Shown here: positions 27,393 to 48,988 of the stretch, one piece after another
How positions within the stretch are numbered: the stretch's first letter is position 1
Layout of the letters: each line of letters opens with the position of its first letter
Source: Ketogulonicigenium vulgare WSH-001
Lineage (GTDB): Bacteria; Pseudomonadota; Alphaproteobacteria; Rhodobacterales; Rhodobacteraceae
Reading direction: 5' to 3'
DNA: 64,000 bases
NCBI RefSeq assembly: GCF_000223375.1
Contig: NC_017386.1
Span: 62,001-126,000 of the forward strand
The notes under the pieces: model-generated
What the model saw: only the letters and a program-made list of their open reading frames with translations
Told to the model about the DNA's origin: nothing
Databases searched by the model: none
Program-made: the position numbers and the translations under genes

Positions 27393-27563
27393 TCAGCGGT
27401 GTTGCCGATTTTCTTGGTCACGCTTTTCACTCTCCGAGCGCGGGTTTTTATCGCGCTGGTTTTCGTGATTTTGTGAGCCGCCAGCTTGGCCCGGACGATT
27501 GCCGTCCTGTTGCTTCTGCTGATTTTGCGGATCGCGTGGCTTGTCTTGGTTTTGATTTGCCAT
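27393..27563 (-). CDS. Small Q/N-rich hydrophilic protein (56 aa)
   Basis: ATG at 27563 with GAGGAG eight bases upstream; reads MANQNQDKPRDPQNQQKQQ... to TGA. Of 56 residues most are Gln, Asn, Asp, Lys, Arg or Glu, with hardly any hydrophobic residue, so it should be intrinsically disordered and resembles hydrophilin-like stress proteins. An exact EcfG-type promoter lies 52 bases upstream (27615-27639), which is strong support that this is a real gene despite its size. No family recognised. Confidence 0.7.
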   Translation of the reverse strand: MANQNQDKPRDPQNQQKQQDGNRPGQAGGSQNHENQRDKNPRSESEKRDQENRQHR

Positions 27564-27614
27564 ATCCATAACTCCTCAATTTGGATAGCTGGCCTCCTCT
27601 GCCAGCGCTTTAGA

Positions 27615-27639
27615 AACGATCAAGGCGTATGGGTGTTCC
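27615..27639 (-). promoter_or_regulatory. EcfG-type promoter, exact match
   Basis: On the minus strand GGAAC-N16-CGTT (seen as AACG-N16-GTTCC on +). It ends 52 bases before the Q/N-rich small gene. Confidence 0.75.
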
Positions 27640-27732
27640 GCGTGCGGTACCCTCACAAATGAGTGATACATGCGTGATCTCGCGATTGGTCAATGAATAT
27701 CCGGGCTTAACGTTTGCAAATGACCGGTCGCA

Positions 27733-27921
27733 TCAATCGTCTTCGACTTTATCGGGCAGCCCGTCATGCGGTGTCGACGCCAGCTCATCCAGCTCTGCCT
27801 CGGTCATCGTGTCATACATCTCTTTGGATGCACCGACCAAATCTTTGACGGCTGTCTCGCCGCGCTTGGCCGACAGTGCGGCCCCGGCTGCTTTTTGTTG
27901 GGCTTTTGATTTTGCAGGCAT
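27733..27921 (-). CDS. DUF3008 family protein (62 aa)
   Basis: MPAKSKAQQKAAGAALSAKRGE near the N-terminus and ASKEMYDTMTEAELDELAST in the second half match the DUF3008 family, small stress-associated proteins of unknown role in alpha- and gammaproteobacteria. I chose ATG 27921 because the family begins MPAKSK; the frame runs further up to 27975. GAGGAGA precedes it. A near-consensus EcfG promoter lies 28 bases upstream (27949-27973). Confidence 0.85.
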   Translation of the reverse strand: MPAKSKAQQKAAGAALSAKRGETAVKDLVGASKEMYDTMTEAELDELASTPHDGLPDKVEDD

Positions 27922-27948
27922 GTTGGTCTCTCCTCGCATTTTGGACGC

Positions 27949-27973
27949 AATGCTTTTCGTTGGATTTAGTTCC
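27949..27973 (-). promoter_or_regulatory. EcfG-type promoter, one mismatch
   Basis: Minus strand GGAAC-N16-CATT, 28 bases before the DUF3008 start. The same CATT variant precedes tspO. Confidence 0.55.
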
Positions 27974-28261
27974 ATTGTGCAGCGTTTCTGCCCAGGATTA
28001 TCACCGCTGACCTCCGCCCCGAATGCCGGCTCGTGCTATCGGCAGGCCATGTAAAGTGCCCGCAACAGGGCGAGACGCGAAATTTACGCCCCAGCGAGGG
28101 AACAAACGCATTTTCTACCGATTGAATTGCTGAATTTGATACCTGCGTCATGGCGAGGCAGGGACAGGGCGGCCCTCACGCGATGCATGATTTGCATGGC
28201 GCATTCACCGTTTAAGTACATGTTTATAAATGATTATTTTATAAATATTTGCTTAATTAAT
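27974..28261. other. Intergenic region, no gene seen
   Basis: Between the DUF3008 and PRC-barrel promoters. The stretch 28224-28260 is very AT-rich (runs of TTTATAAAT) and lies directly upstream of an EcfG-type -35 element, so it could act as an UP element. Nothing else recognisable. Confidence 0.4.
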
Positions 28262-28287
28262 GGAACGATAGACGGATAGCGTGCGTT
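28262..28287 (+). promoter_or_regulatory. EcfG-type promoter, exact match (N17 spacing)
   Basis: GGAAC-N17-CGTT, ending 51 bases before the PRC-barrel gene at 28339, preceded by a strongly AT-rich tract. Confidence 0.75.
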
Positions 28288-28338
28288 GTTTAAGCAGGCC
28301 TCACCTGAGGCAACATTATCATGATAGGAAAATTTGAA

Positions 28339-29208
28339 ATGAAATCCCTCATGCTCACCTCCGCAATCGTTCTCGTGACCATGGGCGCGGCAAATGCCCA
28401 GCAGAATGTCGATGAAGCAATGAACGTGCCAGGATTCCGTGCAACGGATTTCAACGGCATGGATTTGCACACGCTGAGCCCTGACGCGATTGTCGAGCTG
28501 CGCGCCGCGACCCCGGCCAACCCTGCTTGGAACGAACGCAATGCGGCATGGACCAGTAGCGATACCTTTATCGCGGGCCGCGACCAGTGGGAGAATATCG
28601 GCGCGATCAACGATATCGTCCTGAGCCAAGACGGCGAAGTACAGGGCGTCTTGCTGGATGTCGGCGGCTTCCTTGGTATTGGCGTGCGCACGGTGCTGGT
28701 TGATTTCCAAGACCTCTACTTTGTGCGCGAGAATGCTGACGGCGAGAACCTTGGCGATTTCTTCGTCGTGGCGAATCTTTCGCGTGAGCAGCTCGAGGCG
28801 CTGCCCGAATGGGACGACGAGAACCTTGCCATCGGTTACGCCTGGGACAATGGCGCCGCGATGGACGCTGCCGCCCCGATGGGTGTCGCCGATAGCGCCG
28901 CGCCGCAGATCGCCGCGCCAATGGCCGACACCGGCCTTGCCACGCCCACCGCAGAAGAGCTTACCGGCGCGACAGTGGTTGATGGCGCAGGCAACGCGAT
29001 CGGCAGCGTCAGTGATCTGCGCCTCGAAGGCGACATGGTGACTGGTGCGATTATTGATGTTGGCGGATTTCTGGGCATGGGCGCAAAGCCTGTCCTCTTG
29101 CCGATTGATGCCCTCAGCGTCGTCCGCAACCCCGACGGCACAGCGATGCATGTTGCAACGTCCATGACCCGCGAGCAGTTGGAAGCACTGCCCGAGCACG
29201 CACAGTAA
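28339..29208 (+). CDS. Exported protein with two PRC-barrel domains
   Basis: 289 aa with a Sec signal peptide (MKSLMLTSAIVLVTMGAANAQ). Two PRC-barrel units: about residues 85-150 (DVGGFLGIGVRTVLVDFQDL) and about 205-285 (GSVSDLRLEGDMVTGAIIDV, DVGGFLGMGAKPVLLPIDAL), joined by an Ala/Pro-rich linker. PRC barrels are small beta-barrels found in photosynthetic reaction centre H subunits, RimM and many stress proteins; the periplasmic role here is unknown. ATG 28339 follows AGGAAA; ATG 28321 is an alternative. Under an exact EcfG-type promoter, and probably cotranscribed with the next PRC-barrel gene. Confidence 0.85.
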   Translation: MKSLMLTSAIVLVTMGAANAQQNVDEAMNVPGFRATDFNGMDLHTLSPDAIVELRAATPANPAWNERNAAWTSSDTFIAGRDQWENIGAINDIVLSQDGEVQGVLLDVGGFLGIGVRTVLVDFQDLYFVRENADGENLGDFFVVANLSREQLEALPEWDDENLAIGYAWDNGAAMDAAAPMGVADSAAPQIAAPMADTGLATPTAEELTGATVVDGAGNAIGSVSDLRLEGDMVTGAIIDVGGFLGMGAKPVLLPIDALSVVRNPDGTAMHVATSMTREQLEALPEHAQ

Positions 29209-29237: not shown

Positions 29238-29615
29238 ATGAGCAGTCCCGTAACATCGTATAATCCCGCAGAGGCTTCGCACCTTCTGTCAGCCGTGGAC
29301 GAAATCAAAGGCACCAAAGTGTTCAGCCCCGCAGGCGACGATCTGGGCCATATTGATGACGTCATGATCGACGCGACCAGCGGCAAGGTGGTTTACGGCG
29401 TTCTTCAATTTGGGGGTTTTCTGGGTATCGGCTCGGACTACCACCCCATTCCGTTCGGCAAGTTGACCTATGATCAGGCGCGCCATGGTTACACGACGAA
29501 TCTGACGAAAGAGGAGTTGGAAGGTGCACCGCGCTATAGCGATGACTGGCGCACCAACCGCGAGTGGCAGCAGCAGTCGTATGACTACTTTGGTGTCGCC
29601 CCATATTGGCCGTAA
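29238..29615 (+). CDS. PRC-barrel domain protein (125 aa)
   Basis: Single PRC-barrel protein without signal peptide. AAGGAGAT ribosome site before ATG 29238. ASHLLSAVDEIKGTKVFSPA, then LGHIDDVMIDATSGKVVYG and LQFGGFLGIGSDYHPIPFGK define the barrel; the C-terminus (NREWQQQSYDYFGVAPYWP) is short and aromatic. It is 29 bases after the two-barrel gene and probably in its stress operon. Similar proteins are induced in stationary phase in alphaproteobacteria; molecular role unknown. Confidence 0.88.
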   Translation: MSSPVTSYNPAEASHLLSAVDEIKGTKVFSPAGDDLGHIDDVMIDATSGKVVYGVLQFGGFLGIGSDYHPIPFGKLTYDQARHGYTTNLTKEELEGAPRYSDDWRTNREWQQQSYDYFGVAPYWP

Positions 29616-29634
29616 AGTCGGCTAACAATCTATT

Positions 29635-29663: not shown

Positions 29664-30113
29664 TCAGTTGAGGACTAGGATTGAAACCGTAAGAAGCGTG
29701 GCGAATGACACCCAGGCAAGATAGGGCATGAACAGCCATGCGCTAGTGCGGTCTGCGGTGAACGCACGGGCCACAAAGGCGATGATTGTCACCATAAGTG
29801 CGATGATAATCGCCGTTGCCAGCGCTATGTTCTGCAAGCCGAAAAAGCTGGGAGACCATAGGTAGTTAAGGCCCATCTGTGCCGCCCACAGGACCTTTAG
29901 CGACAGGTCTGTGCCGCGCCAACTGCGCCATCCAACTATTCCAATTATGATGTAAAGTGCGCTCCAGACAGGGGAAAATATCCAGTTGGGCGGGTTGAAG
30001 GGTGGCTTTGCAAGGCCCTGATACCACGCGCCGGGTATATTGGTTGCGCCAATGATCAAGCCCACGGCAAGAACCACGACGATGAATGCGACCAGCCCGA
30101 TTTTACCTGCCAT
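29664..30113 (-). CDS. tspO: TspO/MBR family membrane protein
   Basis: 149 aa, five hydrophobic segments. Family motifs: AKPPFNPPNWIFSPVWSALY near residues 34-54, WAAQMGLNYLWSPSFFGLQN near 77-97, and LFMPYLAWVSFATLL near 127-141. TspO binds porphyrins and cholesterol-like ligands; in Rhodobacter it lies in the outer membrane and modulates pigment genes with oxygen and light. AAGGAGG precedes the ATG. A near-consensus EcfG promoter (CATT variant) lies 44 bases upstream, and the LOV kinase gene is divergent. Confidence 0.93.
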   Translation of the reverse strand: MAGKIGLVAFIVVVLAVGLIIGATNIPGAWYQGLAKPPFNPPNWIFSPVWSALYIIIGIVGWRSWRGTDLSLKVLWAAQMGLNYLWSPSFFGLQNIALATAIIIALMVTIIAFVARAFTADRTSAWLFMPYLAWVSFATLLTVSILVLN

Positions 30114-30157: not shown

Positions 30158-30182
30158 AATGTGCAGCCTGCTGATAAGTTCC
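30158..30182 (-). promoter_or_regulatory. EcfG-type promoter, one mismatch, upstream of tspO
   Basis: Minus strand GGAAC-N16-CATT, 44 bases before the tspO start. Confidence 0.5.
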
Positions 30183-30201: not shown

Positions 30202-30226
30202 GGAACCTTACCTGCCCAGGGTGGTT
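30202..30226 (+). promoter_or_regulatory. Possible EcfG-type promoter, one mismatch
   Basis: GGAAC-N16-GGTT on the plus strand, 240 bases before the LOV kinase. Its ends form an imperfect dyad (GGAACC...GGTTC), so chance or an operator are alternatives. A terminator-like hairpin lies about 105 bases downstream. Confidence 0.35.
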
Positions 30227-30465: not shown

Positions 30466-31917
30466 ATGATGAGCGGTACACAGGCCGTGCAGCCAGAAAG
30501 CTTGGGGCGTGAATTCGAAGGCAACCCATTTTTTATCGCGGCGCTGGCGACGCCGATGCCCATGTTGGTTACCGATCCAAGGCGGCCTGACAATCCAATC
30601 GTATTTGTAAATGCCGCGTTTTGCGCGCTGACGGGATACGAACGCGATGACGTCATCGGTCGGAATTGCCGCTTTTTGCAGGGCCCAGGTACCAACCGGG
30701 GTGACATTGCGCGGCTGCGCACCGCCATCGCGGATCGCCAACCCATCGAACTTGATTTGCTGAATTATCGTAAAGATGGGTCGTCGTTCTGGAACCGCCT
30801 GGTCGTGTCGCCCGTTTTCGCAGGGGATGGGCAGGCACTGTATTTCACGGCGTCGCAGTTCGACATATCGCCCGAGCGAAACCGGTTGGCCGAGCTGAAG
30901 AAGAACAAGGATCAGCTGCAGGCCGAGATCGAGATCCGTATGCGCGACATCGCCGCGACCGAAGCCCGATTGAAATTCATCCTCGGTGCAAGCCGTATGG
31001 GCAGCTGGACGCTCGACATTGCCAGCCAGCGGCTGGATGCAACGGCCCAGTGCAAAATGATCTTCGGTCGGCGCCCGCAAGACAGCTTCAGCTACGCAGA
31101 TTTGCGCGCATCCATCCACCCGGATGATCTGGATCGGTGGCAGGCCGAGGTGGGACGCGTGATAGACGGGCGCACAGAGCTTGCCATCGAGTATCGTATC
31201 GTGACGCCCGATGCACAAAACAGATGGGTCGAGGTGCGCGGCCATATTCAGGCGGAAAGCGCACCGCTTTCACCGATTATGATTGGCATTTCGCAAGATA
31301 TTACGGCGCGTAAGGAGCTAGAGGAACAGCGCAAGATCATGTCGCGTGAGCTTGTTCACCGCGTAAAGAATACGATGGCCGCCGCACAGTCGATCTTTAA
31401 CCATTCGCTGCGCAATGCCACCGACTTACAAGATGCAAAGCATCGCGCCGGTGGCAGAATCCGCGCATTGGCCGCCGCGCAGGACCTGCTGATATTAGAG
31501 GGCTGGACCTCGGCCGATACAAAGGCCGTGGTGGCCAAAGGTATCGCACCATTTTACGGTCACGCGATTACCTTTGATGGCCCGGATTTGGTATTGGACG
31601 AAGTGGGGGTTTCGGCGCTTACTCTCGGCCTCTACGAGCTTGCGACGAATTCGATAAAATACGGTGCGCTGAGCGTCGAGACAGGCGCCGTTAATATTCG
31701 CTGGTCTATCATCAAAGGCCAGGAAAACTACTTTATGTTCGAATGGCAGGAACGCGGCGGGCCACCCGCCGTCAAGCCAAAGGCACGCGGGTTCGGCTCG
31801 ACCATCATGGAAACCGTCGTGCCAAATCAGTTCAGGGGGTCTAGCGAAATGCTGTTTGAGGACGCCGGATTGACTTATCGCATTACAGCGCCGGTGCCGC
31901 ATGTGCCGGTCAGATAG
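30466..31917 (+). CDS. LOV-PAS-HWE sensor histidine kinase (blue light)
   Basis: 483 aa, cytoplasmic, no membrane segment. LOV domain about residues 20-130 with GRNCRFLQGP, whose Cys68 is the flavin-adduct cysteine, and the following LDLLNYRKDGSSFWN block. Second PAS/PAC about 165-285. HWE/HisKA_2 kinase: phospho-acceptor LVHRVKNTMAAAQS (His near 297), then LGLYELATNSIKYGAL (N-box) and FGSTIMETVVPNQF. HWE kinases commonly feed PhyR-type regulators. Given the linked EcfG/NepR system, it may pass blue-light or redox input to the stress response (inference). ATG 30466 or 30469; weak ribosome site. Confidence 0.92.
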   Translation: MMSGTQAVQPESLGREFEGNPFFIAALATPMPMLVTDPRRPDNPIVFVNAAFCALTGYERDDVIGRNCRFLQGPGTNRGDIARLRTAIADRQPIELDLLNYRKDGSSFWNRLVVSPVFAGDGQALYFTASQFDISPERNRLAELKKNKDQLQAEIEIRMRDIAATEARLKFILGASRMGSWTLDIASQRLDATAQCKMIFGRRPQDSFSYADLRASIHPDDLDRWQAEVGRVIDGRTELAIEYRIVTPDAQNRWVEVRGHIQAESAPLSPIMIGISQDITARKELEEQRKIMSRELVHRVKNTMAAAQSIFNHSLRNATDLQDAKHRAGGRIRALAAAQDLLILEGWTSADTKAVVAKGIAPFYGHAITFDGPDLVLDEVGVSALTLGLYELATNSIKYGALSVETGAVNIRWSIIKGQENYFMFEWQERGGPPAVKPKARGFGSTIMETVVPNQFRGSSEMLFEDAGLTYRITAPVPHVPVR

Positions 31918-31947: not shown

Positions 31948-32445
31948 TTAGGCTGCCTTTTGCGCAGCAGCGTTTACCGCATCACCTGCAAGCGCGGTGA
32001 GCGCCTCGTCTGTCGCGCTTTCTTCATCCAGCGTTTTGGACAGGAGATCAGCAGCGTCGTTCATGCCAAGCTGCTTTGCCCACGCGCGTAGCGTGCCGTA
32101 ACGCGTGATCTCATAATGCTCGACCGCTTGGGCTACGGCAAGCAGCCCAGCGTCAAGGGCCGGGCTGCCCTTATACTCTTCGATAATTTCGGCCCCTTCT
32201 TCGACGATGCCTTCGATGGCGGCGCAGGTTTTGCCACGGGGGTTTTTCCCCAGCATTTCAAAGATCAATTGAAGGCGCTCGATATGGCCCTCGGTCTCTT
32301 CGTGATGCGTTTTGAACGCGGCTTTCAGGTTCTGATCCTGTGCGGCCCGCGCCATCTTGGGAAGGGTGGACAGGATTTTGCGCTCTGCATAGTAGATGTC
32401 ACGCAAAGTGTCATGGAACAGGGTGTCCAGTGTTTTCTCGGCCAT
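31948..32445 (-). CDS. DUF892 ferritin-like protein (YciE/YciF type)
   Basis: 165 aa, all-helical. LFHDTLRDIYYAERKILSTL at the N-terminus and HHEETEGHIERLQLIFEMLG near residues 42-61 match the YciF/DUF892 ferritin-like family, whose Glu and His residues form a di-metal site; a later VEHYEITRYGTL block holds the second half of the site. E. coli YciE/YciF are stress-induced. ATG 32445 chosen for the GGAG upstream and family start; an in-frame start at 32484 would overlap its promoter. Exact EcfG-type promoter 30 bases upstream. Confidence 0.92.
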   Translation of the reverse strand: MAEKTLDTLFHDTLRDIYYAERKILSTLPKMARAAQDQNLKAAFKTHHEETEGHIERLQLIFEMLGKNPRGKTCAAIEGIVEEGAEIIEEYKGSPALDAGLLAVAQAVEHYEITRYGTLRAWAKQLGMNDAADLLSKTLDEESATDEALTALAGDAVNAAAQKAA

Positions 32446-32475: not shown

Positions 32476-32500
32476 AACGGCCACGCCGGGCGCTTGTTCC
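32476..32500 (-). promoter_or_regulatory. EcfG-type promoter, exact match
   Basis: Minus strand GGAAC-N16-CGTT, 30 bases before the DUF892 start. Confidence 0.8.
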
Positions 32501-32678: not shown

Positions 32679-33908
32679 ATGGGGCGATACAACGCGCGGA
32701 CGCGCAAGGACGATTTGCGTATCGGCACACCTATCTGGGTTAAAACCCCACATTCAACGGTCGAGGCCAATCACGCGTTGCCTAACGGCGCGTTCGATGT
32801 CGTCGTGGTCGGGGCTGGCGTGTCAGGCGCCCTGGTGAGCGAGGCGCTAACCCGCGCCGGCCATCGCGTATTGATCGTGGATCGCAGGCCGCCTGCGCGC
32901 GGCTCGACTGCGGCGTCGACCGCGATGATACAACATGAGATTGACGTTCCACTTGTTCATCTAAGGCGCAAAATCGGTGTGCAAAAAGCCGATCGCGCTT
33001 GGCTGCGTTCTGTCAAAGCGGTCAAAGACCTGACAGATCTGGTTCAGGACTTAAAGATAGACTGCCAATTTGCGCCAAAGCCTGCGCTTTACCTTTGCGG
33101 GAACCAGATGGGCCATCGCGCTATGACGGCCGAGGCTGCTGCGCGGAACAAGATAGGCATTAAAGCAGAATATCTGAGCGGCGGGGCTTTAAAAGATCGT
33201 TTTAATATATCCAGAACGGGGGCGATATTGTCGCAGGATTCTGCATCCGCCAATCCAGCGCAATTGACCGCCGGGCTTTTAGAGGTAGCAATTGCGCGAG
33301 GGGCATGTCTCGTCTCACCACTCGAGGTCACCGATATATCAGAAATGTCGGGTGTCGTCTCTATTGCAACAGGTGACGGGCATTCTATTAGTGCGCGCGA
33401 TATTGTCTTTTGCACGGGCTATGAACATCTCGTGCAGATGCGGTCTAAAGCACACCGCGTGACATCCACTTGGGCCCTTGCGTCCTATCCAACCACGCCG
33501 CTGCCCCGCTGGATGGAAGACACAATCGTCTGGGAGGCATCAGACCCCTATTTATATTTTCGAACCGATGCACATGGGCGCGTCATCGTCGGCGGTGAAG
33601 ACGAGGATGCGGCCCATGCGAATGAGAGTGAAAGAAAACTAAAGCGTAAATCACATCTTATACAAGAAAAGCTCGCCACGCTCACAGGCGTCACTTTACA
33701 GGACCCTGATTATGCCTGGGCCGCACCGTTTAGTGCCACAGTTGATGGGCTGCCTATTATTGATCGCGTGCCGGGATTTAAAAACGCCTATTCGCTTATG
33801 GGATTTGGGGGGAATGGGATAACCTTCTCAATGATTGGCGCACAGATCATATCGGCCGCAATTGCAGGCGATCAAGATCCAGATTCCGATATATTCCGTT
33901 ATCGCTAA
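32679..33908 (+). CDS. FAD-dependent oxidoreductase, DAO family
   Basis: 409 aa. Rossmann FAD-binding motif DVVVVGAGVSGALVSEAL near residues 39-57, DRRPPARGSTAASTAM (substrate/FAD loop) near 73-90, C-terminal GLPIIDRVPGFKNAYSLMGF and GGNGITFSM. These are DadA/glycine-oxidase-like family blocks; the amine or amino acid substrate is not predictable. ATG 32679 has GGAGCAGG upstream; ATG 32658 is an alternative. No EcfG motif was found upstream, unlike its neighbours. Its stop overlaps by four bases the stop of the convergent CheB-CheR kinase gene. Confidence 0.88.
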   Translation: MGRYNARTRKDDLRIGTPIWVKTPHSTVEANHALPNGAFDVVVVGAGVSGALVSEALTRAGHRVLIVDRRPPARGSTAASTAMIQHEIDVPLVHLRRKIGVQKADRAWLRSVKAVKDLTDLVQDLKIDCQFAPKPALYLCGNQMGHRAMTAEAAARNKIGIKAEYLSGGALKDRFNISRTGAILSQDSASANPAQLTAGLLEVAIARGACLVSPLEVTDISEMSGVVSIATGDGHSISARDIVFCTGYEHLVQMRSKAHRVTSTWALASYPTTPLPRWMEDTIVWEASDPYLYFRTDAHGRVIVGGEDEDAAHANESERKLKRKSHLIQEKLATLTGVTLQDPDYAWAAPFSATVDGLPIIDRVPGFKNAYSLMGFGGNGITFSMIGAQIISAAIAGDQDPDSDIFRYR

Positions 33909-36900
33909 AATTTAGACTTTTCAGTGGCATAGGGCGACAGGGGGATCGTGATCGTCGCACGAAATCCGGTCTTTTCATAAACCTTCTTGATCTCACCGCT
34001 GAGGCGATAAGATATTTCGCCCTCTAGCAATTCGAATCCAAAGCCGTTTTCAGACGGCTCTTTCGCGCCCGGCCCACCCGTTTCCGACCAATCAATCGTA
34101 AGTTGGCTGTTCTCGAACTGCCATTGCACTTTCACCAGACCCGCATCGACCGAAAGCGCGCCATATTTGGCCGCATTCGTTGTTAACTCGTGGGCGACCA
34201 TGGTGAGTGAAAGACCGATTTGCACCGGCAGCGATAAATCGGGGCCCTCAATGTGAAAAGCACTATGCCCAAACGGCGCAAGTTCCGCAGTGAATATGTC
34301 AGCGATCGAGGAATCGACCCATTGATCCCGCGAGAGAGATCCATATGCGCGGCTTAAGGCCGCCAATCGTCCACTAAACGCGCGCTCAAATGTTGAAACG
34401 GATTGAGACTTTTCAATCGTGCGCTTGGCAATAGATCCCACGACGAGGAGCAGGTTTTTAACACGATGGTTGAGTTCCTCCACCAGAACATGCTGCATAT
34501 GCTCGGCTTCGGCCAATTGTGTAACATCTACAAAAGTGACGATCACACCATCTATTTCGTTCCCGTCGGTGCGGTATGGGATAACGCGCACAAGATATTG
34601 CTGCCCGTCGCGGTCTTTTGCGACATGATGATCCAAAGCATCGCCCGAGGCGAAAACGGCTCTTATATCTTCGCTCAGGCTGGGATAATCGAGTTGGCTG
34701 GACAGTTCTGTCAGGGGGCGACCGACATCATTCGTGCGCAGATTGAAGAATTGGGCGGCTTCAGGTGTAAAGGTACGAATAACAAGTCCACGATCCAAGA
34801 AGATCGTTGCAATGCGGGTGCTTTCAAAAAGATTGCGCAAATCATTATTGGCGCGATCTAGCTCCTCAATCTTTCCGTTCAATTCGGAATTTATGGTATT
34901 TAATTCTTCGTTGAGCGACTGCATCTCCTCTTTGGATGCCTCCAGCTCTTCGTTACTTGATTGGACTTCTTCATTCACAGAAACAAGCTCCTCATTCGAG
35001 GATTTAAGCTCTTCAAGCGCTGTTTCGTATTCTTCAATCGTTGATTGAAGCCGTTCTTTGGTATCCCGCAACTCGTGTTCAAGCTCTGTGTGCCGGTCGT
35101 CCGACAGGCTGTACTGGCCACCCAGTGCCTGTGCGGATGGCGGGGACTTCGCCTCGAACACAACAAGATAGAGCTGTTCCGCACCGGCCCGATCGCTGAT
35201 TGGCTCGATGGTGAAATCTACGATTTGCACCTCATCGCTTTCGCGTTCGGCCAGCAGATTTTGGCGCGTCACCCTTTTTTGCGTTGAAACGCATTCACTT
35301 AGCGCAGCGCGCAGATCCAGACGTAGCCCCTTTCGTGCGAGGGTCATCAATTGACGGCTCGGAACGCCTTGGGGCGCTTCTAGAAAGGGCGAGGTTCCCG
35401 CAGAATAATAAACGATATCCGCATCAGAGTTCACCACAACATGCGCGGGGGCAAACCGTTCCAGAATGCGGGATTCCACTTTGCTTCGCAGCGAGGTGTC
35501 CCGCTCCTTTTGCGAGCTCGCGCTGGCATCCGTGAAAAGGAAAGACCGATTGTGGCTGACATTCGACGTCAGTCGCAGCGCTTTTGGCGAATGGTCGCGG
35601 GCCTGGAAAATACGGTGCTTTTTATCGAGCGTGCTAAAAAGATGGCTATGTTTGCCAATACTTTCCGAGCTGCCAAGAAACAGATACCCACGCGGGCGCA
35701 AAGAATAGTGAAACACCGGGATCACATCGCGCTGCACCTCGGGGCCAAAATAGATCAGTAGATTACGGCACGACACCATATCCATGCGCGAAAACGGCGG
35801 GTCGCGCACCAGACTATGGGGCGAGAAAACACACATCTCGCGCACTTCGTTGATGATCACAAAGCTCGCGCCATCGGGGCGCACATAGCGCCGACGACGC
35901 TCCGCCGACAGGCCGTCGAGCAATGCCTCTGGATAGCGCCCGGCGCGCGCAACAGAGAGTGCAGCCTCGTCGATGTCGGTCGCAAATATCTGCACGCGCG
36001 GGGCATTCGGATGCCGCTCAATGAATTCGCGCATCAAGATTGCAATGGAATAGACCTCTTCGCCCGTTGCACATCCGGGCACCCAAATGCGCAGGGTATC
36101 AGAAGACTTTTTATGTTCGAAAAGTTTCGGAATAATCTCTTTTTCCAGTAACTTGAACGCGTCTTCGTCCCGAAAAAAGCTCGTGACGTTGATCAGAAGA
36201 TCACGAAAAAGGTTCGTTACCTCTGTCGGGTCCTTGCGCAACAAATCAATATAATTGTCCAGTGTCTCGCTTTGCTGAACCTGCATCCGTCTGCGAACAC
36301 GCCGGAAAAACGTCTTGGTTTTGTAGCCTGAAAAGTCATGGGTCGAGTGGCCTGCAAGTATGGCGCAGATTTCACGATGCGCACGCTGCAGATCCGTCCG
36401 GGTCAACTCGTCGCTTGCGCGGCTTACGGCCTCCAGCGTGTCAAAGCTGCGTGCAAAAATCCGAAGGCGGTCGGGGATTTCTTCGACAGGGATGGCAAGG
36501 TCGATGATGTTGATGCTGATAGCGCTTTGCGGCATGTCAGGGTTGAGCGCTTCGTCATCATCAAGGGATTGGGCAAGCGTCAGACCGCCCGCTTCGCGAA
36601 TGGCCTTGGCGCCCAAGGTTCCGTCTGCGTTTCCGCCCGAAAGTATGACCCCAACGGCATATTCGCGCTGATCTTGGGCAAGGTCGGCAAAGAACACATC
36701 CACGGGCTTACGCTCGCGCTTGGCCATGTCCGGCGCGTTTGACCGCAGCACGCCATCCTCGATCGTCAGGATTGCATCCGCGGGCATGATGTAAACGGTG
36801 TTAGACGCAACAGGCGTATCTGCGGCTGCGACAGCGACGGGCATACCGGTCCAGCCTGCGATGGCGTCGCAAACATCGCTGTCGCGAAGCTCCTCTAGGT

Positions 36901-37027
36901 GCATCACAATAACGATGGCGAACCCCGGGTTCGGCTCGAGCGTCTCGAAAAATGTCTCGAGCGCGGGAAGGGCGCTTTGGGCGCAACCGATTGAGACGAT
37001 AGGAAACCTGTCAGACAAGCGCAGCAT
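33905..37027 (-). CDS. CheB-CheR-PAS-HWE histidine kinase fusion
   Basis: 1040 aa, soluble. CheB-like methylesterase about 8-185; CheR methyltransferase about 210-480 with SAM-binding WVPGCATGEEVYS and SCRNLLIYF; linker; long coiled coil about 640-725 made of SSNEEL/SLNEEL repeats; PAS about 730-840; HWE kinase with LVEELNHRVKNLLLVV (acceptor His near 857) and MVAHELTTNAAKYGAL. The CheB nucleophile motif G-x-S-x-G-G reads GCAQSA, so Ala16 replaces the catalytic Ser, while His43 and Asp135 remain. The esterase is therefore probably inactive and may act in binding or sensing. Such hybrids can feed general stress regulators. No promoter identified. Confidence 0.93.
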   Translation of the reverse strand: MLRLSDRFPIVSIGCAQSALPALETFFETLEPNPGFAIVIVMHLEELRDSDVCDAIAGWTGMPVAVAAADTPVASNTVYIMPADAILTIEDGVLRSNAPDMAKRERKPVDVFFADLAQDQREYAVGVILSGGNADGTLGAKAIREAGGLTLAQSLDDDEALNPDMPQSAISINIIDLAIPVEEIPDRLRIFARSFDTLEAVSRASDELTRTDLQRAHREICAILAGHSTHDFSGYKTKTFFRRVRRRMQVQQSETLDNYIDLLRKDPTEVTNLFRDLLINVTSFFRDEDAFKLLEKEIIPKLFEHKKSSDTLRIWVPGCATGEEVYSIAILMREFIERHPNAPRVQIFATDIDEAALSVARAGRYPEALLDGLSAERRRRYVRPDGASFVIINEVREMCVFSPHSLVRDPPFSRMDMVSCRNLLIYFGPEVQRDVIPVFHYSLRPRGYLFLGSSESIGKHSHLFSTLDKKHRIFQARDHSPKALRLTSNVSHNRSFLFTDASASSQKERDTSLRSKVESRILERFAPAHVVVNSDADIVYYSAGTSPFLEAPQGVPSRQLMTLARKGLRLDLRAALSECVSTQKRVTRQNLLAERESDEVQIVDFTIEPISDRAGAEQLYLVVFEAKSPPSAQALGGQYSLSDDRHTELEHELRDTKERLQSTIEEYETALEELKSSNEELVSVNEEVQSSNEELEASKEEMQSLNEELNTINSELNGKIEELDRANNDLRNLFESTRIATIFLDRGLVIRTFTPEAAQFFNLRTNDVGRPLTELSSQLDYPSLSEDIRAVFASGDALDHHVAKDRDGQQYLVRVIPYRTDGNEIDGVIVTFVDVTQLAEAEHMQHVLVEELNHRVKNLLLVVGSIAKRTIEKSQSVSTFERAFSGRLAALSRAYGSLSRDQWVDSSIADIFTAELAPFGHSAFHIEGPDLSLPVQIGLSLTMVAHELTTNAAKYGALSVDAGLVKVQWQFENSQLTIDWSETGGPGAKEPSENGFGFELLEGEISYRLSGEIKKVYEKTGFRATITIPLSPYATEKSKF

Positions 37028-39199: not shown

Positions 39200-39224
39200 G
39201 GAACTATCGCAGCGTCAGCCGGTT
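39200..39224 (+). promoter_or_regulatory. EcfG-type promoter, one mismatch
   Basis: GGAAC-N16-GGTT, 49 bases before the PRC-barrel gene at 39274. Confidence 0.5.
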
Positions 39225-39273: not shown

Positions 39274-39759
39274 ATGAAAACCTTCATGCTAACGAGCGCT
39301 ATTGTTTTAACCGCCGCAACCGCGGGCTGGGCCCAGCAAGCCGCTGAACCGCCCGCCGGGGCACCGGCAATGCCTGCCCCAGAGGCGACAGCAGCGCCGC
39401 CCGAAGATGCAGGTGCGGGCCCGTCGGGTACGACCACCCTTGATGGACAGGCTGTTGATCCGGCCGCGCCGCGCACGGATGCTGGTATGGCCGCGCCCTC
39501 TGCCCAAGAGTTGACCGGTGCGACAGTCCTGGATGCTTCGGGAGAGACGATCGGCACCGTCACTGATTTGGAAGTGGACGGCGACGCCGTCACCGCTGTC
39601 TTGATCGATGTCGGCGCCTATATCGGCGGCGAGAGCAAAATCGTGCACCTGCCGATTGACGCATTCCATGTTGCCCGCGCGGGCGATGGCTCTGCCACGC
39701 ATATTGAGGCCTCGGTCACGCGGGCCGAGCTGGAAGCCATGGACCCCCATCAGGATTAA
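39274..39759 (+). CDS. Exported PRC-barrel domain protein (161 aa)
   Basis: Signal peptide MKTFMLTSAIVLTAATAGWA shares MLTSAIVL with the signal peptide of the two-barrel protein at 28339, so the two are probably paralogues. Mature part: Ala/Pro-rich low-complexity linker (about residues 22-80), then one PRC barrel (ELTGATVLDASGETIGTVTD, LIDVGAYIGGESKIVHLPID) to the C-terminus. The GGFLGIG turn of the other barrels is changed to GAYIGGE. Function unknown; probably periplasmic. Confidence 0.85.
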   Translation: MKTFMLTSAIVLTAATAGWAQQAAEPPAGAPAMPAPEATAAPPEDAGAGPSGTTTLDGQAVDPAAPRTDAGMAAPSAQELTGATVLDASGETIGTVTDLEVDGDAVTAVLIDVGAYIGGESKIVHLPIDAFHVARAGDGSATHIEASVTRAELEAMDPHQD

Positions 39760-39809: not shown

Positions 39810-40697
39810 TTAAATCATCGGTCTGCCGCCCGTCACAGCGATTGTCGCACCTGATGTATAGCTGGAAATCGGATCTGCCAGCATGACATAGGCCGACGCC
39901 AGCTCGGCGGGCTGTCCCGGACGGCCCATTGGGCTATTTGCACCAAATTGTGCGACATCCTCGGCGGATTTTGACGCCGGCTGCAATGGGGTCCAGACGG
40001 GTCCGGGCGCGACGCAGTTCACACGAATTGCGCGTTTGGCCAAAAGATGCGCCAAGCCCCCTGTGAAATTTTGAATCGCGCCTTTTGTCGCCGCATAGGC
40101 CACCATAGCCGGGCTTGGCTGGTCAGCGTTCACAGAGGTCGAATTAATGATCGACGCGCCCGCCTGCATATGCGGAACTGCGGCCTTCACCAGATAAAAC
40201 ATCGCGTGAATGTTGACGGCGAATGTCTTTTCCCATTCGGCATCAGCATAGTCCTCGATTTCGGAAAACTCTGACTGATGGGCGGCGTTGTTGACCAGAA
40301 TATCAATGCCGCCAAAGGCCTCGACCACGCGGGCAATAGCGCTGCGACAAAAATCTGCATCTGCGATATCGCCGGGGATCAACAGGCCGCGTTGGCCTGC
40401 GGCCTCGATCATGCGCAACGTGTCCTTGGCATCGGCGTCTTCGGCGTCATTCAGATATCCGATCGCGACATCGGCACCTTCGCGGGCAAATGCGATCGCG
40501 ACAGCGCGACCAATGCCGCTATCACCGCCGGTGATGAAAGCCCTTTTTCCCGTTAGCCTGCCGCTGCCCTTATAGGTTGTCTCGCCATGATCGGGCCGGG
40601 GGTCCATTTTAAGAAACGAACCCGGCGCGGGCTGTGTTTGCGCAGGGTAGGGTGGCATGGGATATGCGGGATGCGCCGTGTTCTTATCATCGCTCAT
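39810..40697 (-). CDS. SDR family oxidoreductase, general-stress type (YghA/YhdF-like)
   Basis: 295 aa. NAD(P)-binding FITGGDSGIGRAVAIAFARE near residue 54, NNAAHQ motif, catalytic Ser (INSTSVN) and YAATK (Tyr-x3-Lys). The N-terminal extension, PPYPAQTQPAPGSFLKMDPR followed by PDHGETTYKGSGRLTGK, is typical of the YghA/YhdF/GsiB-linked stress dehydrogenases. ATG 40697 follows AAGGAGA. Exact EcfG-type promoter 26 bases upstream. Physiological substrate of the family is not established. Confidence 0.93.
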   Translation of the reverse strand: MSDDKNTAHPAYPMPPYPAQTQPAPGSFLKMDPRPDHGETTYKGSGRLTGKRAFITGGDSGIGRAVAIAFAREGADVAIGYLNDAEDADAKDTLRMIEAAGQRGLLIPGDIADADFCRSAIARVVEAFGGIDILVNNAAHQSEFSEIEDYADAEWEKTFAVNIHAMFYLVKAAVPHMQAGASIINSTSVNADQPSPAMVAYAATKGAIQNFTGGLAHLLAKRAIRVNCVAPGPVWTPLQPASKSAEDVAQFGANSPMGRPGQPAELASAYVMLADPISSYTSGATIAVTGGRPMI

Positions 40698-40723: not shown

Positions 40724-40748
40724 AACGGGCAGGGTGGCCAATTGTTCC
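40724..40748 (-). promoter_or_regulatory. EcfG-type promoter, exact match, for the SDR gene
   Basis: Minus strand GGAAC-N16-CGTT, 26 bases before the SDR start. Confidence 0.8.
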
Positions 40749-40929: not shown

Positions 40930-40954
40930 GGAACCTATACCGGGCGAGATCGTT
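40930..40954 (+). promoter_or_regulatory. EcfG-type promoter, exact match, for catalase
   Basis: GGAAC-N16-CGTT, ending 71 bases before the catalase ATG. Confidence 0.8.
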
Positions 40955-41025: not shown

Positions 41026-43074
41026 ATGACGCGCAAGCCCTATGAAAGCAAAATTGGAAATGGTGGCGAGACCCAGCAGACGGGTGGCGCAGCACTGACA
41101 ACCAATCACGGTATACCGATATCGGATAACCAGAATTCATTGACCGCTGGCCAGCGTGGCCCCACACTTTTGGAGGACTTTCTTCTACGCGAGAAGATCT
41201 TTCATTTCGATCACGAGCGCATCCCCGAGCGCATTGTCCATGCACGCGGGTCCGCCGCCCATGGGGTGTTCACCTGCACCGATCCGATCCCGGAACTTTC
41301 CCGCGCAACTCTGTTTGCCGCAAAAGGCAAAGAGACCCCGGTCTTTGTACGCTTTTCGACGGTCGCGGGGGGCGCGGGGTCTGTTGACACACCGCGCGAT
41401 GTGCGCGGCTTTGCGGTTAAGTTCTACACCGACGAGGGCAACTGGGACCTTGTCGGGAACAATATCCCCGTCTTTTTCATCCAAGACGCGATCAAGTTCC
41501 CGGATTTGATCCATTCCGTGAAGATGGAGGCGGATCGTGGATTTCCGCAGGCCGCCTCTGCTCATGACACGTTTTGGGACTTTATCTCGCTGATGCCGGA
41601 ATCGCTTCATACGGTGATCTGGGCCATGTCCGACCGCGCCATTCCGCGAAGCCTGCGCATGATGGAAGGCTTTGGGGTCCATACCTTTAAGTTGGTCAAT
41701 GCCGAGGGTGAAAGTCATTTTGTGAAGTTTCACTGGAAGCCGGTGCTGGGGACGCAATCGCTGGTCTGGGATGAAAGCGCAAAGCTGCAGGGTGCCGACA
41801 ATGATTATCACCGGCGCGACCTCTATGAGGCTATCGCGGCAGGCGATTACCCGTCATGGGATTTCGCGGTGCAGATCTTTGACCAAGATTTCGCCGATAG
41901 CCTGCCCTATGATGTTCTCGACCCCACGAAGATTATCCCCGAAGAACTTGTGCCGCTGCGGGTGATCGGTCGCCTGACCCTCAATCGAAACCCCGACAAT
42001 CATTTCGCTGAGAACGAGCAGGCGGCCTTCCTGCCCTCGAATGTCGTGCCGGGTATTGATTTTTCGGACGATCCGCTGCTGCAGGGTCGGCTTTTCAGCT
42101 ATCTTGATACGCAAAAGTCGCGCCTTGGAACGACGAATTTCCACCAGATCCCGGTGAACGCCCCGAAATGTCCCTATGCCAATATGATGCGCGATGGCCT
42201 GATGCAGACCGCCGTGCCCAAAGGGCGCGCGAATTACGAACCAAATAGCCTTGATGAATTAGGCGAGAACCCCGGCCCACGTCCCAGCGCCCAGGGCTTT
42301 GCAACCGCGAGGCAGGCGGTGCAGGGTGATAAGCAGCGATTGCGGCCGCAAAGTTTCGGCGATCACTACAGCCAGCCGCGCATGTATTGGCACTCGATGA
42401 CGGATAATGAACGCGCGCATATTGCGTCTGCTTTCGTCTTTGAACTGTCAAAAGTCCAGGCTGATCACGTGCGTCAGCGGGTGCTGTCGCATCTGCGGGT
42501 CATCGACGAAAAGCTTGGCGCGCGTGTGGCGCGCGGTCTGGGCGTGGCTTTGCCGCAGGCTGCCACCCCATTCGTGGCGCCGCAAGATTTGGGAACCTCG
42601 GCCGCGCTGTCAATCCAATCGAACTGGCATGCAAAGCTAGAGGGCCGCAAGGTCGGCGTGCTGATCGCCGAAGGGTCAGACAAGCAGGCGTTGGATGATC
42701 TCATTGCCGCGATCGAGGGCGAGGGCGGTCAGGCATTTATTGTGGCACCGAAGGTTGGAGAATTGCAGCTCAAGGGTGGCACGATCAAGGCAGATGGCCA
42801 GCTTGCGGGCTCCCCTTCGGTGCTGTTCGATGCGATCGCTATGATCTTGATGCCCAAGCAGGCCGAGGCGCTGGCAAAAGAGGCCGCCGCGATCGCATTT
42901 GTCATGGATGCCTATGCGCATCTGAAGGCCATCGGGCACTGCAAGGGCTCGCAAGTCATTTTGGACCGGGCGGGGATCGCAGATGGTGAAGGCATTGGCA
43001 CCAACGCCCAATTGGCCGAGATGGCGAAATACCGCTATTGGTCGCGCGAAGCGACGCTGCGCGATTTGGCGTAA
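41026..43074 (+). CDS. katE: Large-subunit monofunctional catalase (HPII/KatE type)
   Basis: 682 aa clade 2 catalase, heme enzyme that dismutates hydrogen peroxide. Catalytic His in [10 protein letters not shown] (near 72), distal Asn in [13 protein letters not shown] (near 145), proximal heme Tyr in [15 protein letters not shown] (near 358). The C-terminal 150 residues ([20 protein letters not shown] and onward) form the flavodoxin/DJ-1-like domain specific to large catalases. AGGAAG ribosome site. Under an exact EcfG-type promoter, consistent with general stress control, as katE is under RpoS in E. coli. Confidence 0.97.
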
Positions 43075-44388: not shown

Positions 44389-44414
44389 GGAACCGCCCAA
44401 GCCTTTCCCGCGTT
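44389..44414 (+). promoter_or_regulatory. EcfG-type promoter, exact match (N17 spacing)
   Basis: GGAAC-N17-CGTT. The nearest downstream frame is a 50-codon ORF at 44450; the osmF operon starts 428 bases on. It could serve either. Confidence 0.55.
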
Positions 44415-44449: not shown

Positions 44450-44602
44450 ATGTCGGCAGGGTGCGGGTTATGCGAAACGCCTCAAAAGGTGCCATATGCG
44501 CGCTATCGCAAGAACGGTCTCTTTTTCAGCATCGATTCCGACTATCGTGATTGTGGGGACAAGCGGCAGGATGTTTCATCCGATCCGACAAGATCGTTTT
44601 GA
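44450..44602 (+). CDS. Possible small Cys-rich protein (50 aa)
   Basis: MSAGCGLCETPQKVPYARYR, then a segment with IDSDYRDCGDKRQDV and a stop. Starts 36 bases after an exact EcfG-type -10 element. Weak ribosome site. An overlapping frame (ATG 44570 to 44774, ending RSTRTPGEDESAK) is equally open, so at most one is real. No family recognised. Confidence 0.3.
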   Translation: MSAGCGLCETPQKVPYARYRKNGLFFSIDSDYRDCGDKRQDVSSDPTRSF

Positions 44603-44841
44603 TGCGAAATCGAACGTAGTCCATGATGTATTGATCAAGGATGACCCGCTATTGCCGATGATTGAGGGGGTTTTCTTCGTTCAGAAGACGCAGGCGAATG
44701 AGGCGCTCGGTGCTTTGTTTCTACAGTTTGACAGATCCACGCGCACGCCCGGCGAAGATGAAAGCGCAAAGTAAGGTAAATCTTTTCGGCGGGACAGATG
44801 CCGATTCAATCACAACACGCGATCCTCGAAAGGATATCATT

Positions 44842-46885: not shown

Positions 46886-47817
46886 TTGAAATTCGGAACC
46901 TGACCAAAAGTTTTGGCGATATGCGCGCGGTCGATGATGTGTCGCTTACACTCGAGCGCGGCTCGATCACCGCGATTGTCGGCACCTCGGGCTCGGGCAA
47001 GTCCACGCTTTTGCGCATGGTCAACCGCTTGGTTGAACCCGATGGCGGAGAGGTTCTGCTGAACGGCCAATCGACCCGATCCGTGCCGCAGGCAGCGCTA
47101 TGCCGCCAGATGGGATATGTGATCCAGGATCACGGCCTGTTCCCGCATTGGACCGTGCGCCGCAATATCGGCACCGTGCCGCAACTGCTAGGCTGGCAGC
47201 GGGCGCGTATAGATGCACGCGTTGACGAGGTCATGCGACTGCTGCAGCTTGACCCAAGTATCTTTGCCGGTCGCTATCCGCATGAGCTTTCCGGCGGCCA
47301 GTCGCAGCGTGTGGGCGTCGCCCGCGCGATTGCAGCCGCGCCGGATGTGCTGCTGATGGACGAGCCGTTCGGGGCGCTGGACCCTGTCATTCGCGCCGAT
47401 GCACAGCAGGTGCTGCGCGATGTGCATCGCGCCTCTGGAACCACAATCCTGATGGTCACCCATGATATGGGCGAGGCGATGCTGCTGGCGGACCGGATTG
47501 CCGTGATGGATGCGGGACGGATCGTGCAATGCGATGCGCCGGACCGTATTATCACCCATCCGGCGAATGCCTTTGTCCGGGCGCTGATCACGGAGAGCGA
47601 GCGCGCCTTTCGCCACCTTGCCCTGCTGCCTGCAGCCCCGCTGATCACCGATATGCCCGCCGCGGGCGAGGCTCTACCCCGAAACAGCACACTTGCAGCA
47701 GTGCTTGCTGCGATGATCTGGTCTGGCCGCAGCCAAGTCCCGATGGCAGACGATACGGGGCAAGTGATTGGCAGTATTGAGTTATCCGACGTTATACAGG
47801 CGGGGCGCCCGACATGA
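46882..47817 (+). CDS. yehX: Osmoprotectant ABC transporter ATPase (YehX-like)
   Basis: 311 aa. Walker A GTSGSGKSTLLRMVNRL near residue 35, Q-loop GYVIQDHGLFPHWTV, signature LSGGQSQRVGVARA, Walker B VLLMDEPFGALDP, H-loop VTHDMGEA. The C-terminal 70 residues carry a degenerate CBS-like regulatory region, as in OpuCA/YehX. ATGA overlap with the permease upstream and with yehW downstream. Confidence 0.95.
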   Translation: MIEIRNLTKSFGDMRAVDDVSLTLERGSITAIVGTSGSGKSTLLRMVNRLVEPDGGEVLLNGQSTRSVPQAALCRQMGYVIQDHGLFPHWTVRRNIGTVPQLLGWQRARIDARVDEVMRLLQLDPSIFAGRYPHELSGGQSQRVGVARAIAAAPDVLLMDEPFGALDPVIRADAQQVLRDVHRASGTTILMVTHDMGEAMLLADRIAVMDAGRIVQCDAPDRIITHPANAFVRALITESERAFRHLALLPAAPLITDMPAAGEALPRNSTLAAVLAAMIWSGRSQVPMADDTGQVIGSIELSDVIQAGRPT

Positions 47818-48551
47818 GACGCTACATCGGCCTTATCCTTGGCATGATCATCACCGCAGCCATGATCATCTGGCCGCCGCTCTTCTCGCCCCTCATCGGT
47901 CTGGTTGCGCCGGCGAATGGCCCCGTTCTGTATGATCGCAGCAGCATGATGGCGCTGACATTGTCCCATATCGGCATGGTGGCCTTTGCGGTCCTTCCGG
48001 CAACGCTTCTCGCCGTTGCGGTGGCGGCTCTGGTGAACCGTCCGGCGGGTGCGCCGTTTCTGCCCATCGCGCGTTCGCTGGTCAATCTGGGGCAAACCAT
48101 CCCCCCTGTTGCCGTGCTGGCGCTTTGCGTGCCGCTGATGGGTTTCGGAACATGGCCGACGATTACGGCGCTTTTCCTCTATAGCCTTTTGCCCATTTTC
48201 GAGAATGCGCTGGCAGGGCTGCGCGGTGTTCCCACCGCAACACGACTATCGGCGCGCGCGATGGGCATGTCCGAATTGCAGATCTTTTGGCGCCTCGACC
48301 TGCCCCTTGCCGCCCCGCTGATCATCGCCGGCATCCGCATCGCAGCGGTCATTGCCATATCGACGGCGACCATCGGCTCGACCGTCGCGGCAAGCAGCCT
48401 TGGCGAGGTGATTATCGCGGGGCTGAACCTGAACAATCAGGCCTTCATCTTGCAAGGCGCGCTTTTAACCGCAGCGCTTGCCCTGATCATCCACGGATCG
48501 CTGGGCGTTTTGGCCGCATGTTTTCAGTACAGAGGCGTGAGGTCTGATTAG
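47814..48551 (+). CDS. yehW: Osmoprotectant ABC permease (YehW-like)
   Basis: 245 aa, about six membrane segments. TIPPVAVLALCVPLMGFGTW and the coupling loop TATRLSARAMGMSELQIFWR style block (GVPTATRLSARAMGMSELQ) near residue 145 are typical of OpuCB/YehW permeases; IAISTATIGSTVAASSLGE follows. Last gene of the osmF-yehYXW operon. A PRC-barrel gene with its own promoter follows. Confidence 0.94.
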   Translation: MRRYIGLILGMIITAAMIIWPPLFSPLIGLVAPANGPVLYDRSSMMALTLSHIGMVAFAVLPATLLAVAVAALVNRPAGAPFLPIARSLVNLGQTIPPVAVLALCVPLMGFGTWPTITALFLYSLLPIFENALAGLRGVPTATRLSARAMGMSELQIFWRLDLPLAAPLIIAGIRIAAVIAISTATIGSTVAASSLGEVIIAGLNLNNQAFILQGALLTAALALIIHGSLGVLAACFQYRGVRSD

Positions 48552-48626
48552 ATTATAATTTGTTTTTTTATCAGTCACTTATGTAAATATATCAGGCCCA
48601 AAAAGACACAAGACAATCGCAGCGAG

Positions 48627-48651
48627 GGAACTTTCCTGATCAGAAAACGTT
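48627..48651 (+). promoter_or_regulatory. EcfG-type promoter, exact match
   Basis: GGAAC-N16-CGTT, ending 40 bases before the PRC-barrel gene at 48692. Confidence 0.8.
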
Positions 48652-48691
48652 TCTTTTACAGAAGATCATGACGTGAGAGGAGCGAAATGCC

Positions 48692-48988
48692 ATGGACCAT
48701 ACCAGACATATCCGCCTGAACGACACCGAGCTGACCGAGGCTGTGCTGAATGGTGCAACCATCTACGGCCCCGCAGACGAGAAGATCGGCCATGTATCCG
48801 AAGTACACGGTCAAGGCAGCGGCGCGCATGTCGTTGTCGACATCGGTGGCTTTTTGGGCATTGGCGCAAAGCCCGTCGCCTTACTGGCAAGCGATCTGGA
48901 TTTCATGCGTGACGAGGACAATACCGTTCATGCACTGACCCGCTGGACCAAGGACGAGCTAAAGGCACTGCCCGAGCATCGTCACTGA
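48692..48988 (+). CDS. PRC-barrel domain protein (98 aa)
   Basis: Single cytoplasmic PRC barrel, no signal peptide. NDTELTEAVLNGATIYGPAD, then VVVDIGGFLGIGAKPVALLA and TRWTKDELKALPEHRH at the end. The C-terminal pattern (DELKALPEH) is nearly the same as in the two-barrel protein at 28339 (REQLEALPEH), indicating shared ancestry. GAGGAG ribosome site; ATG 48692 chosen because ATG 48687 leads to a 10-codon dead end. Confidence 0.88.
   Translation: MDHTRHIRLNDTELTEAVLNGATIYGPADEKIGHVSEVHGQGSGAHVVVDIGGFLGIGAKPVALLASDLDFMRDEDNTVHALTRWTKDELKALPEHRH

Follow-up and report, generated by a model that had tools for sequence, protein, structure and literature searches.

Core genes of the plasmid-1 locus

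The 64-kb stretch of DNA analysed here (the window) represents bases 62001-126000 of plasmid 1 (267,986 bp) of Ketogulonicigenium vulgare, the vitamin-C bacterium, whose genome of 3,277,101 bp is composed of three replicons. A 21.6-kb interval of the window (27393-48988; feature coordinates are those of the window) contains an unusual locus related to the general stress response (GSR), in which the response regulator is a receiver-sigma2 protein, not a PhyR, and is located beside a divergent NepR-like protein. These genes lie within a cluster of EcfG-type promoter sites, GGAAC-N16/17-CGTT. The stretch between 37 and 46 kb is 99.9-100% identical to three records of K. vulgare plasmid 1 and 98.3% identical to a fourth, and the Hbe602 copy of the plasmid is typed as conjugative in PLSDB.

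The receiver-sigma2 response regulator (WP_013368454; 38225-38875, minus strand) is composed of a receiver (residues ~31-145) followed by a three-helix sigma2 domain (~147-215). Its NCBI name, 'histidine kinase', is a misannotation of a response regulator. The gene located 3' of it encodes a small NepR-like protein of 78 residues, a probable anti-sigma factor (37934-38170, minus strand), and is convergent with ecfG1 (37328-37924, plus strand; NCBI start). The product of ecfG1 is an EcfG-type extracytoplasmic function (ECF) sigma factor (EcfG1) matching Sigma70_r2 with 61 bits and Sigma70_r4_2 with 46 bits, so that the cluster does hold an EcfG-like sigma gene, in line with the ecfG named in a preliminary description of this DNA. 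In addition, two histidine kinases are encoded in the interval. The CheB-CheR-PAS-HWE kinase (33905-37027, minus strand; Pfam CheB, CheR, PAS_10 and HWE_HK) is the candidate kinase of the switch proposed below, and the LOV/PAS-HWE kinase (30466-31917, plus strand; PAS_9, PAS_3 and HWE_HK) is a candidate blue-light input, containing an NCRFLQ motif, read by eye, that we take to mark a LOV domain.

The receiver-sigma2 regulator is not a PhyR

In the K. vulgare regulator, the Pfam receiver match (residues 36-112) precedes the sigma2 match (155-193), and the same order is found in its relatives. This order is the reverse of that in PhyR, which has its sigma-like domain at the N-terminus and its receiver at the C-terminus. 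Moreover, no sigma4 was found in the regulator with the Pfam sigma4 families at E 1, the protein ending after the three sigma2 helices, and its score with the NCBIfam PhyR model PRK09191 is 41.6 bits (cut-off 240 bits), as against 334.9 bits for the PhyR encoded on plasmid 2. By domain order, sigma4 and NCBIfam score alike, the protein does not belong to the PhyR family. No description of the receiver-sigma2 order was found in searches of a subset of the PubMed Central literature, from which subscription papers are mostly absent.

The phosphorylation residues of the receiver are intact in an alignment of 46 rows. Comparison of the whole protein with known structures listed 50 entries, all matching the receiver only, and the C-terminal domain was therefore predicted and searched alone; the predicted domain adopts a three-helix sigma2 fold homologous to ECF sigma2. 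In a search of viral structures, the best-ranked matches were mostly to receivers, response regulators and kinases, and this search was left unused. The family profile of the C-terminal domain scores a median of 44 bits against EcfG sigma2 and 20 bits against PhyR sigma2, a closeness to EcfG that applies to the family profile only, since the K. vulgare member by itself matches the PhyR model. These scores disfavor a simple permuted PhyR as the origin of the protein, although the match of the K. vulgare member to the PhyR model counts in favor of such an origin.

The family resemblance to a true ECF sigma2, closer than that to the sigma2 of PhyR, would also suit a different role, in which the domain binds RNA polymerase, not NepR, and the protein acts as a phosphorylation-gated competitor for the core polymerase. 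The first two helices, which hold most of the near-invariant residues of the domain, are consistent with this role. However, the residues following WL..LM in EcfG, a stretch that we take to be region 2.3-2.4, are not kept in the K. vulgare regulator, and the steady neighbor of the regulator gene is a NepR-like gene. Polymerase competition is thus quite improbable.

The NepR-like protein and the sigma factor

The NepR-like protein matches PF18557 with an E-value of 3.8e-4 and 20.5 bits, under the cut-off of 25.7, and the plasmid-2 NepR likewise stays under it (22.3 bits). The alignment of the NepR-like family profile, K. vulgare protein excluded, with the NepR profile gives a score of 36.2 and a probability of 88%, the maximum of 60 column-shuffled runs (three of which printed an error) being 11.0; one of the 11 canonical NepR rows is a wrong-strand open reading frame (ORF). 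The NepR-like protein contains a conserved P..L..LA..L stretch. The small partner is named 'hypothetical' in seven annotated NCBI records.

Five EcfG-like sigma factors are encoded in the genome. EcfG1 groups with the ECFs linked to receiver-sigma2 genes in a clade of its own near canonical EcfG, as judged without an ECF15 model; the side of the tree that holds EcfG1 also includes three ECFs from the K. vulgare chromosome. In this tree, 12 receiver-sigma2-linked ECFs are separated from 11 phyR-linked ECFs with a support of 99/96. Two of the chromosomal EcfG-like sigma genes (C1:788542 and C1:1520820) are near-identical, each with an identical EcfG-type site ~1-2 kb away (C1:790805-790829, minus strand, and 1519526-1519550, plus strand); the two places probably represent a recent duplication.

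A cluster of EcfG-type promoters surrounds the core genes

The exact motif GGAAC-N16/17-CGTT is found eight times in the window, with 0.87 expected (100 dinucleotide shuffles, maximum 5), and all eight sites are located in the interval, the remainder of the window containing none. Across a set of 360 permuted motifs that also contains the real one, the mean number in the interval is 0.41 and the best other motif reaches 3. The motif agrees with the EcfG promoter consensus of the GGAAC-N16/17-C/GGTT type, as given in published reports (PMC12148442, PMC4814048, PMC7083833), in line with the promoter type assigned in the preliminary description. All seven exact sites listed there are present, together with an eighth that had been overlooked (30791-30816, plus strand).

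Across the whole genome, 53 exact sites are found (125 for the reversed control pattern), and 22 of them lie between genes and have a start 10-150 nt downstream, here termed the promoter position; these calls rest on a crude gene caller, so that the starts are approximate. Ten of the 22 are on the 2.77-Mb chromosome, three on plasmid 2 and nine on plasmid 1 (six in the interval, three elsewhere). Comparison with the genome background, a check suggested in the preliminary description, reveals a strong enrichment: the interval accounts for 0.66% of the genome and would be expected to hold 0.14 of the 22 promoter-position sites instead of six (binomial P ~6e-9; 0 of 20,000 random placements matched).

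The promoter cluster is therefore real, and the regulon is genome-wide, the cluster being only a part of it, because the interval is strongly enriched yet most promoter-position sites are located elsewhere. The earlier view of one physically linked stress regulon is supported insofar as such promoters and genes are linked, here and at other places, but a single regulon confined to this interval is not supported: the other sites are chromosomal, elsewhere on plasmid 1, or at the plasmid-2 GSR locus with its own EcfG. Some of the chromosomal targets, judged by eye, resemble what we take to be GlsB-type, ExoD-like and glycosyl-hydrolase proteins.

Sites with one mismatch in the -10 element form a weak class, with 12 in the interval and six in the rest of the window. 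Moreover, N16 matches with at most one mismatch anywhere number 20 (five exact), close to the 12.6 expected by chance, and for this reason one-mismatch sites were not used as independent evidence. The four described previously are all present and, as the interval holds 12 such variants, they represent the well-placed ones among these. That this class barely exceeds chance would fit a chance accumulation of a short motif beside genes that have nothing in common, together with a decayed PhyR. The shuffle, permutation and whole-genome controls reject chance clustering, gene families of the cluster also carry this promoter type next to receiver-sigma2 genes elsewhere, and the phosphorylation residues are intact across the alignment; an accident of this kind is extremely improbable.

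Putative target genes in the interval

The well-placed exact sites precede genes for a 58-residue hydrophilic protein, two PRC-barrel proteins, a DUF892 protein, a short-chain dehydrogenase (SDR) and a catalase, and one-mismatch sites are located ahead of the DUF3008 and tspO genes and of a third PRC gene. All of these genes are putative targets. On the minus strand, an exact promoter (27615-27639) is located 45 nt before the gene for the 58-residue protein (27393-27569), which is Gln/Asn-rich and matches no Pfam family at E 0.1, and a CATT site (27949-27973) is located 27 nt before the DUF3008 gene (27733-27921; PF11450, 100 bits; start of the NCBI record). On the plus strand, the exact promoter at 28262-28287 lies 33 nt before the gene for an exported protein with two PRC-barrel stretches (28321-29208; PF05239), or 63 nt from its NCBI start. 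The PRC-barrel gene that follows (29238-29615, plus strand; PF05239, 44 bits) is, judging by the spacing, likely part of the same transcript. The tspO gene (29664-30113, minus strand; TspO/MBR, PF03073, 136 bits) is preceded at 44 nt by a CATT site (30158-30182, minus strand), and the DUF892 gene for a ferritin-like protein (31948-32445, minus strand; PF05974, 205 bits; NCBI start) at 30 nt by an exact promoter (32476-32500, minus strand).

On the other side of the core genes, a GGTT site (39200-39224, plus strand) is found before a gene for an exported PRC-barrel protein (39274-39759, plus strand; PF05239, 32 bits). The SDR gene (39810-40697, minus strand; PF13561, 198 bits; NCBI start) has an exact promoter 26 nt upstream (40724-40748, minus strand), and that of the long catalase (41026-43074, plus strand; PF00199, 597 bits) is located 71 nt upstream (40930-40954, plus strand). 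Furthermore, the exact promoter at 48627-48651 (plus strand) lies 40 nt before the gene for a 98-residue PRC-barrel protein (48692-48988, plus strand), named so by NCBI and just under the PF05239 cut-off with 18.9 bits.

The preliminary description had nine of its eleven sites ending 26-71 nt before a start codon. This spacing stands with plausible starts, but for the site at 39200 it depends on the start at 39274 (49 nt), the NCBI start being 145 nt away. The two exceptions are doubtful sites on the plus strand: the GGTT site at 30202-30226 is 239 nt from the LOV kinase gene, and the exact site at 44389-44414 is 81 nt from a 92-residue ORF annotated by NCBI (44496-44774). The eighth exact site is probably no promoter, because it is located within the coding sequence of the LOV kinase.

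Receiver-sigma2 genes recur with the same neighbors

Full-length receiver-sigma2 matches were found in eight genomes of the order (292 searched), four of the class (385 searched) and five of the family (394 searched), three overlapping samples that each count K. vulgare; the gene is present in 14 distinct genomes, K. vulgare included. In the order sample, 97 genomes match at E 1e-15, and among the matches listed only those of eight genomes extend to the end of the model. In named plasmids, tblastn matched 20 records, 13 of them with at least 80% coverage, and the gene is plasmid-borne in K. vulgare and six other named records.

Twenty-two distinct loci were compared, the window included, mostly as stretches of 12-19 kb (L175 repeats L087). 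A scan of contigs with weak patterns gave two full-length relatives (L048 and L049) among the 22 loci listed there, the other 20 being left out of the locus counts. A NepR-like gene is located no more than 9 kb from the regulator gene at 19 of the 22 compared loci, at a distance of ~110 bp or less in ten. This family was built from seven members picked by eye (window included), whose profile, with a second round built on it, found 12 of the 15 others; the match at L049 is weak (26 bits). An EcfG-type ECF is found in the stretch at 11 loci and, 11.5 kb away, in G175 (12 of 22 in total), and a homologue of the CheB-CheR-HWE kinase at nine, K. vulgare included. The set is clearest on a named plasmid of Martelella mediterranea, with a CheR-family kinase, the response regulator, a ferritin-like protein, an ECF, a cytochrome P450, a NepR-like protein ('hypothetical') and DUF3008. 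In G094 (Rhodobacterales), the receiver-sigma2 gene is located ~12 kb from a canonical nepR-phyR (C4:3029453 and 3041481-3041975).

The promoters are conserved on some target homologues at the other loci. A GGAAC-N16/17-C/GGTT site lies near the approximate start of 8 of 23 homologues of the target families, a set that includes one locus entered twice (L087/L175) and six SDR homologues; 29 permuted -35 elements give a mean of 0.03 and a maximum of 1. For core genes, 8 of 66 matches, receiver-only ones included, carry a site (six distinct sites; permuted mean 0.10, maximum 2). Twelve of the 22 loci hold more sites than any permuted -35 element gives there.

Tistrella mobilis (G548) and G323 contain the regulator and a NepR-like gene, with an EcfG-like ECF elsewhere that falls outside the linked clade, and gave no full-length PhyR match at E 1e-5; G306 has only a receiver match to the PhyR query. 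Having the regulator and NepR-like gene without a full-length PhyR match, T. mobilis and G323 provide natural test cases, and the receiver-sigma2 switch may be their sole GSR-type switch.

The canonical core on plasmid 2

Genome searches with PF22029 and PF18557 locate a canonical phyR with divergent nepR-ecfG, accompanied by three exact sites, on plasmid 2. A PhyR query of the genome (E 1e-5) gave one full-length match and one that covers the receiver only, both on this plasmid; on the chromosome no PhyR was found, and for NepR nothing better than E 0.8. K. vulgare would thus have its entire general stress core on two plasmids. The plasmid-2 ecfG-nepR-phyR locus (G000:C2:119963-121393) adjoins two PRC-barrel genes and a gene for a pyrroloquinoline-quinone-dependent glucose/sorbosone dehydrogenase, a neighbor possibly of interest for the production of the vitamin-C precursor. 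The only other genome of the genus that was searched (G895, 2.7 Mb) gave no match to PhyR_sigma2 (E 1e-6), NepR (0.05), PhyR (1e-5) or the receiver-sigma2 profile (1e-36), and the stress core may therefore be gained and lost along with plasmids.

The canonical EcfG of plasmid 2 might itself serve the plasmid-1 cluster, the plasmid-1 core only modulating it, for instance as a brake acting through competition for PhyR, for NepR or for the sigma factor. The same site type at both loci and the plasmid-1 core genes, which have no exact site, are in line with this arrangement. We nevertheless consider it unlikely, though the most credible of the alternatives, as ECFs of one separate clade are repeatedly linked to receiver-sigma2 genes, and as T. 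mobilis and G323, which gave no full-length PhyR match at E 1e-5, have the regulator and a NepR-like gene as well as an EcfG-like ECF elsewhere.

A proposed second partner switch

We propose, with a probability of about 60%, that a second GSR module, apart from the ecfG-nepR-phyR of plasmid 2, is located on plasmid 1 of K. vulgare, with part of its targets around it and with its receiver-sigma2, NepR-like and ECF proteins forming a partner switch. As the best reading of the related loci, the module is often plasmid-borne and works as a general-stress partner switch. Because its pieces match the logic of PhyR-NepR-EcfG, a capture-and-release mechanism is suggested. The CheB-CheR-HWE kinase, and perhaps the LOV kinase too, would phosphorylate the receiver of the regulator, whose C-terminal sigma2 domain would then capture the small NepR-like protein. 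The captured protein would let go of the EcfG-type sigma factor, and the freed factor would transcribe the catalase, DUF892, SDR, PRC, TspO and DUF3008 genes from the GGAAC-N16/17-CGTT promoters.

The module is supported by the enrichment of sites, by its gene content and the domain order of its regulator, by the intact phosphorylation residues, by the homology and predicted fold of the sigma2 domain, and by the linkage of its parts across genomes, the ECF clade of its own and the conserved promoters on some target homologues. All protein contacts, the direction of the switch, the pairing of kinase and regulator and the sigma factor that uses the promoters are inferred, on the basis of homology, linkage and conservation.

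Several observations weigh against the proposed module. In K. vulgare, ecfG1, the receiver-sigma2 gene and the CheB-CheR kinase gene all lack an exact EcfG-type site ahead of them, and EcfG1 is on a long branch. The Pfam receiver match of the regulator is under the cut-off (17.6 of 30.2 bits), its sigma2 part matches the NCBIfam PhyR model with 41.6 bits, and no NCBIfam sigma-factor model matches it at E 0.01. In addition, the regulator lacks the sigma4 that PhyR has, the sigma-like domain of PhyR comprising sigma2 and sigma4 (PMC4598750, PMC12148442). Eight of ten NepR-like proteins score nothing with the Pfam NepR model, and the other two are below the cut-off. Across the loci, a profile search within 9 kb found no NepR-like gene at L072, L073 and L090, ten of the 22 have no ECF found nearby, ten lack a clear site enrichment, and none of the six SDR homologues has a site.

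A further reading, to which we give just short of an even chance, is that sigma-factor mimicry arose twice. The receiver would have joined an EcfG-type sigma2 independently of PhyR and, together with a reduced NepR and ECFs that form their own clade, would constitute a self-contained stress switch that travels on plasmids and carries its targets. The match of the K. vulgare sigma2 part to the NCBIfam PhyR model weakens this second origin. If sigma2 alone suffices to pull NepR off the sigma factor, the minimal picture of the partner switch changes.

Comparison with known systems

Methylobacterium offers two precedents, namely NepR proteins that are divergent and an EcfG paralogue, Mext_0132, cut down to sigma2, but the sections of PMC4814048 on this paralogue report no fused receiver. 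The non-canonical EcfG2 of Rhizobium etli, borne on plasmid p42f, is likewise an EcfG paralogue, and the available part of PMC3892343 describes no response-regulator or anti-sigma gene near it. The same 2013 source calls the control of extra, often plasmid-borne EcfG copies unexplained for R. etli; the module described here is a concrete candidate for such control, with a NepR-like protein dedicated to it and an antagonist of the receiver-sigma2 type, both of them easily overlooked. The gene taken as R. etli EcfG2 (L179, 8886-11657) has DUF892 and cytochrome P450 genes for neighbors, an arrangement shared by the ECF gene of the Martelella module. The R. etli gene is placed weakly on the receiver-sigma2-linked side of the tree (88/93, long branch), and a shared ancestor of the two is possible. 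Between 45 and 85 kb of p42f, neither a receiver-sigma2 gene nor a NepR-like gene was found, and the R. etli locus was rejected as a further member of the module.

Like K. vulgare, Rubellimicrobium thermophilum has two GSR loci within a single species, as well as LOV/HWE kinases and the same promoters (PMC12148442). It differs in that both of its PhyRs, solved as 9BY5 and 9CB6, have the sigma-like domain first and the receiver last.

The plasmid-1 module shares with the PhyR-NepR-EcfG system of Alphaproteobacteria an EcfG-type sigma factor, a NepR-like protein, a regulator with a sigma-like domain, HWE kinases and GGAAC-N16/17-C/GGTT promoters. In contrast to the canonical system, it is plasmid-borne, its NepR-like protein is below the Pfam cut-off and its ECF belongs to a separate clade. 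Moreover, unlike PhyR, its regulator has the receiver at the N-terminus and a C-terminal part composed of sigma2 only, which as a family is closer to the sigma2 of EcfG.

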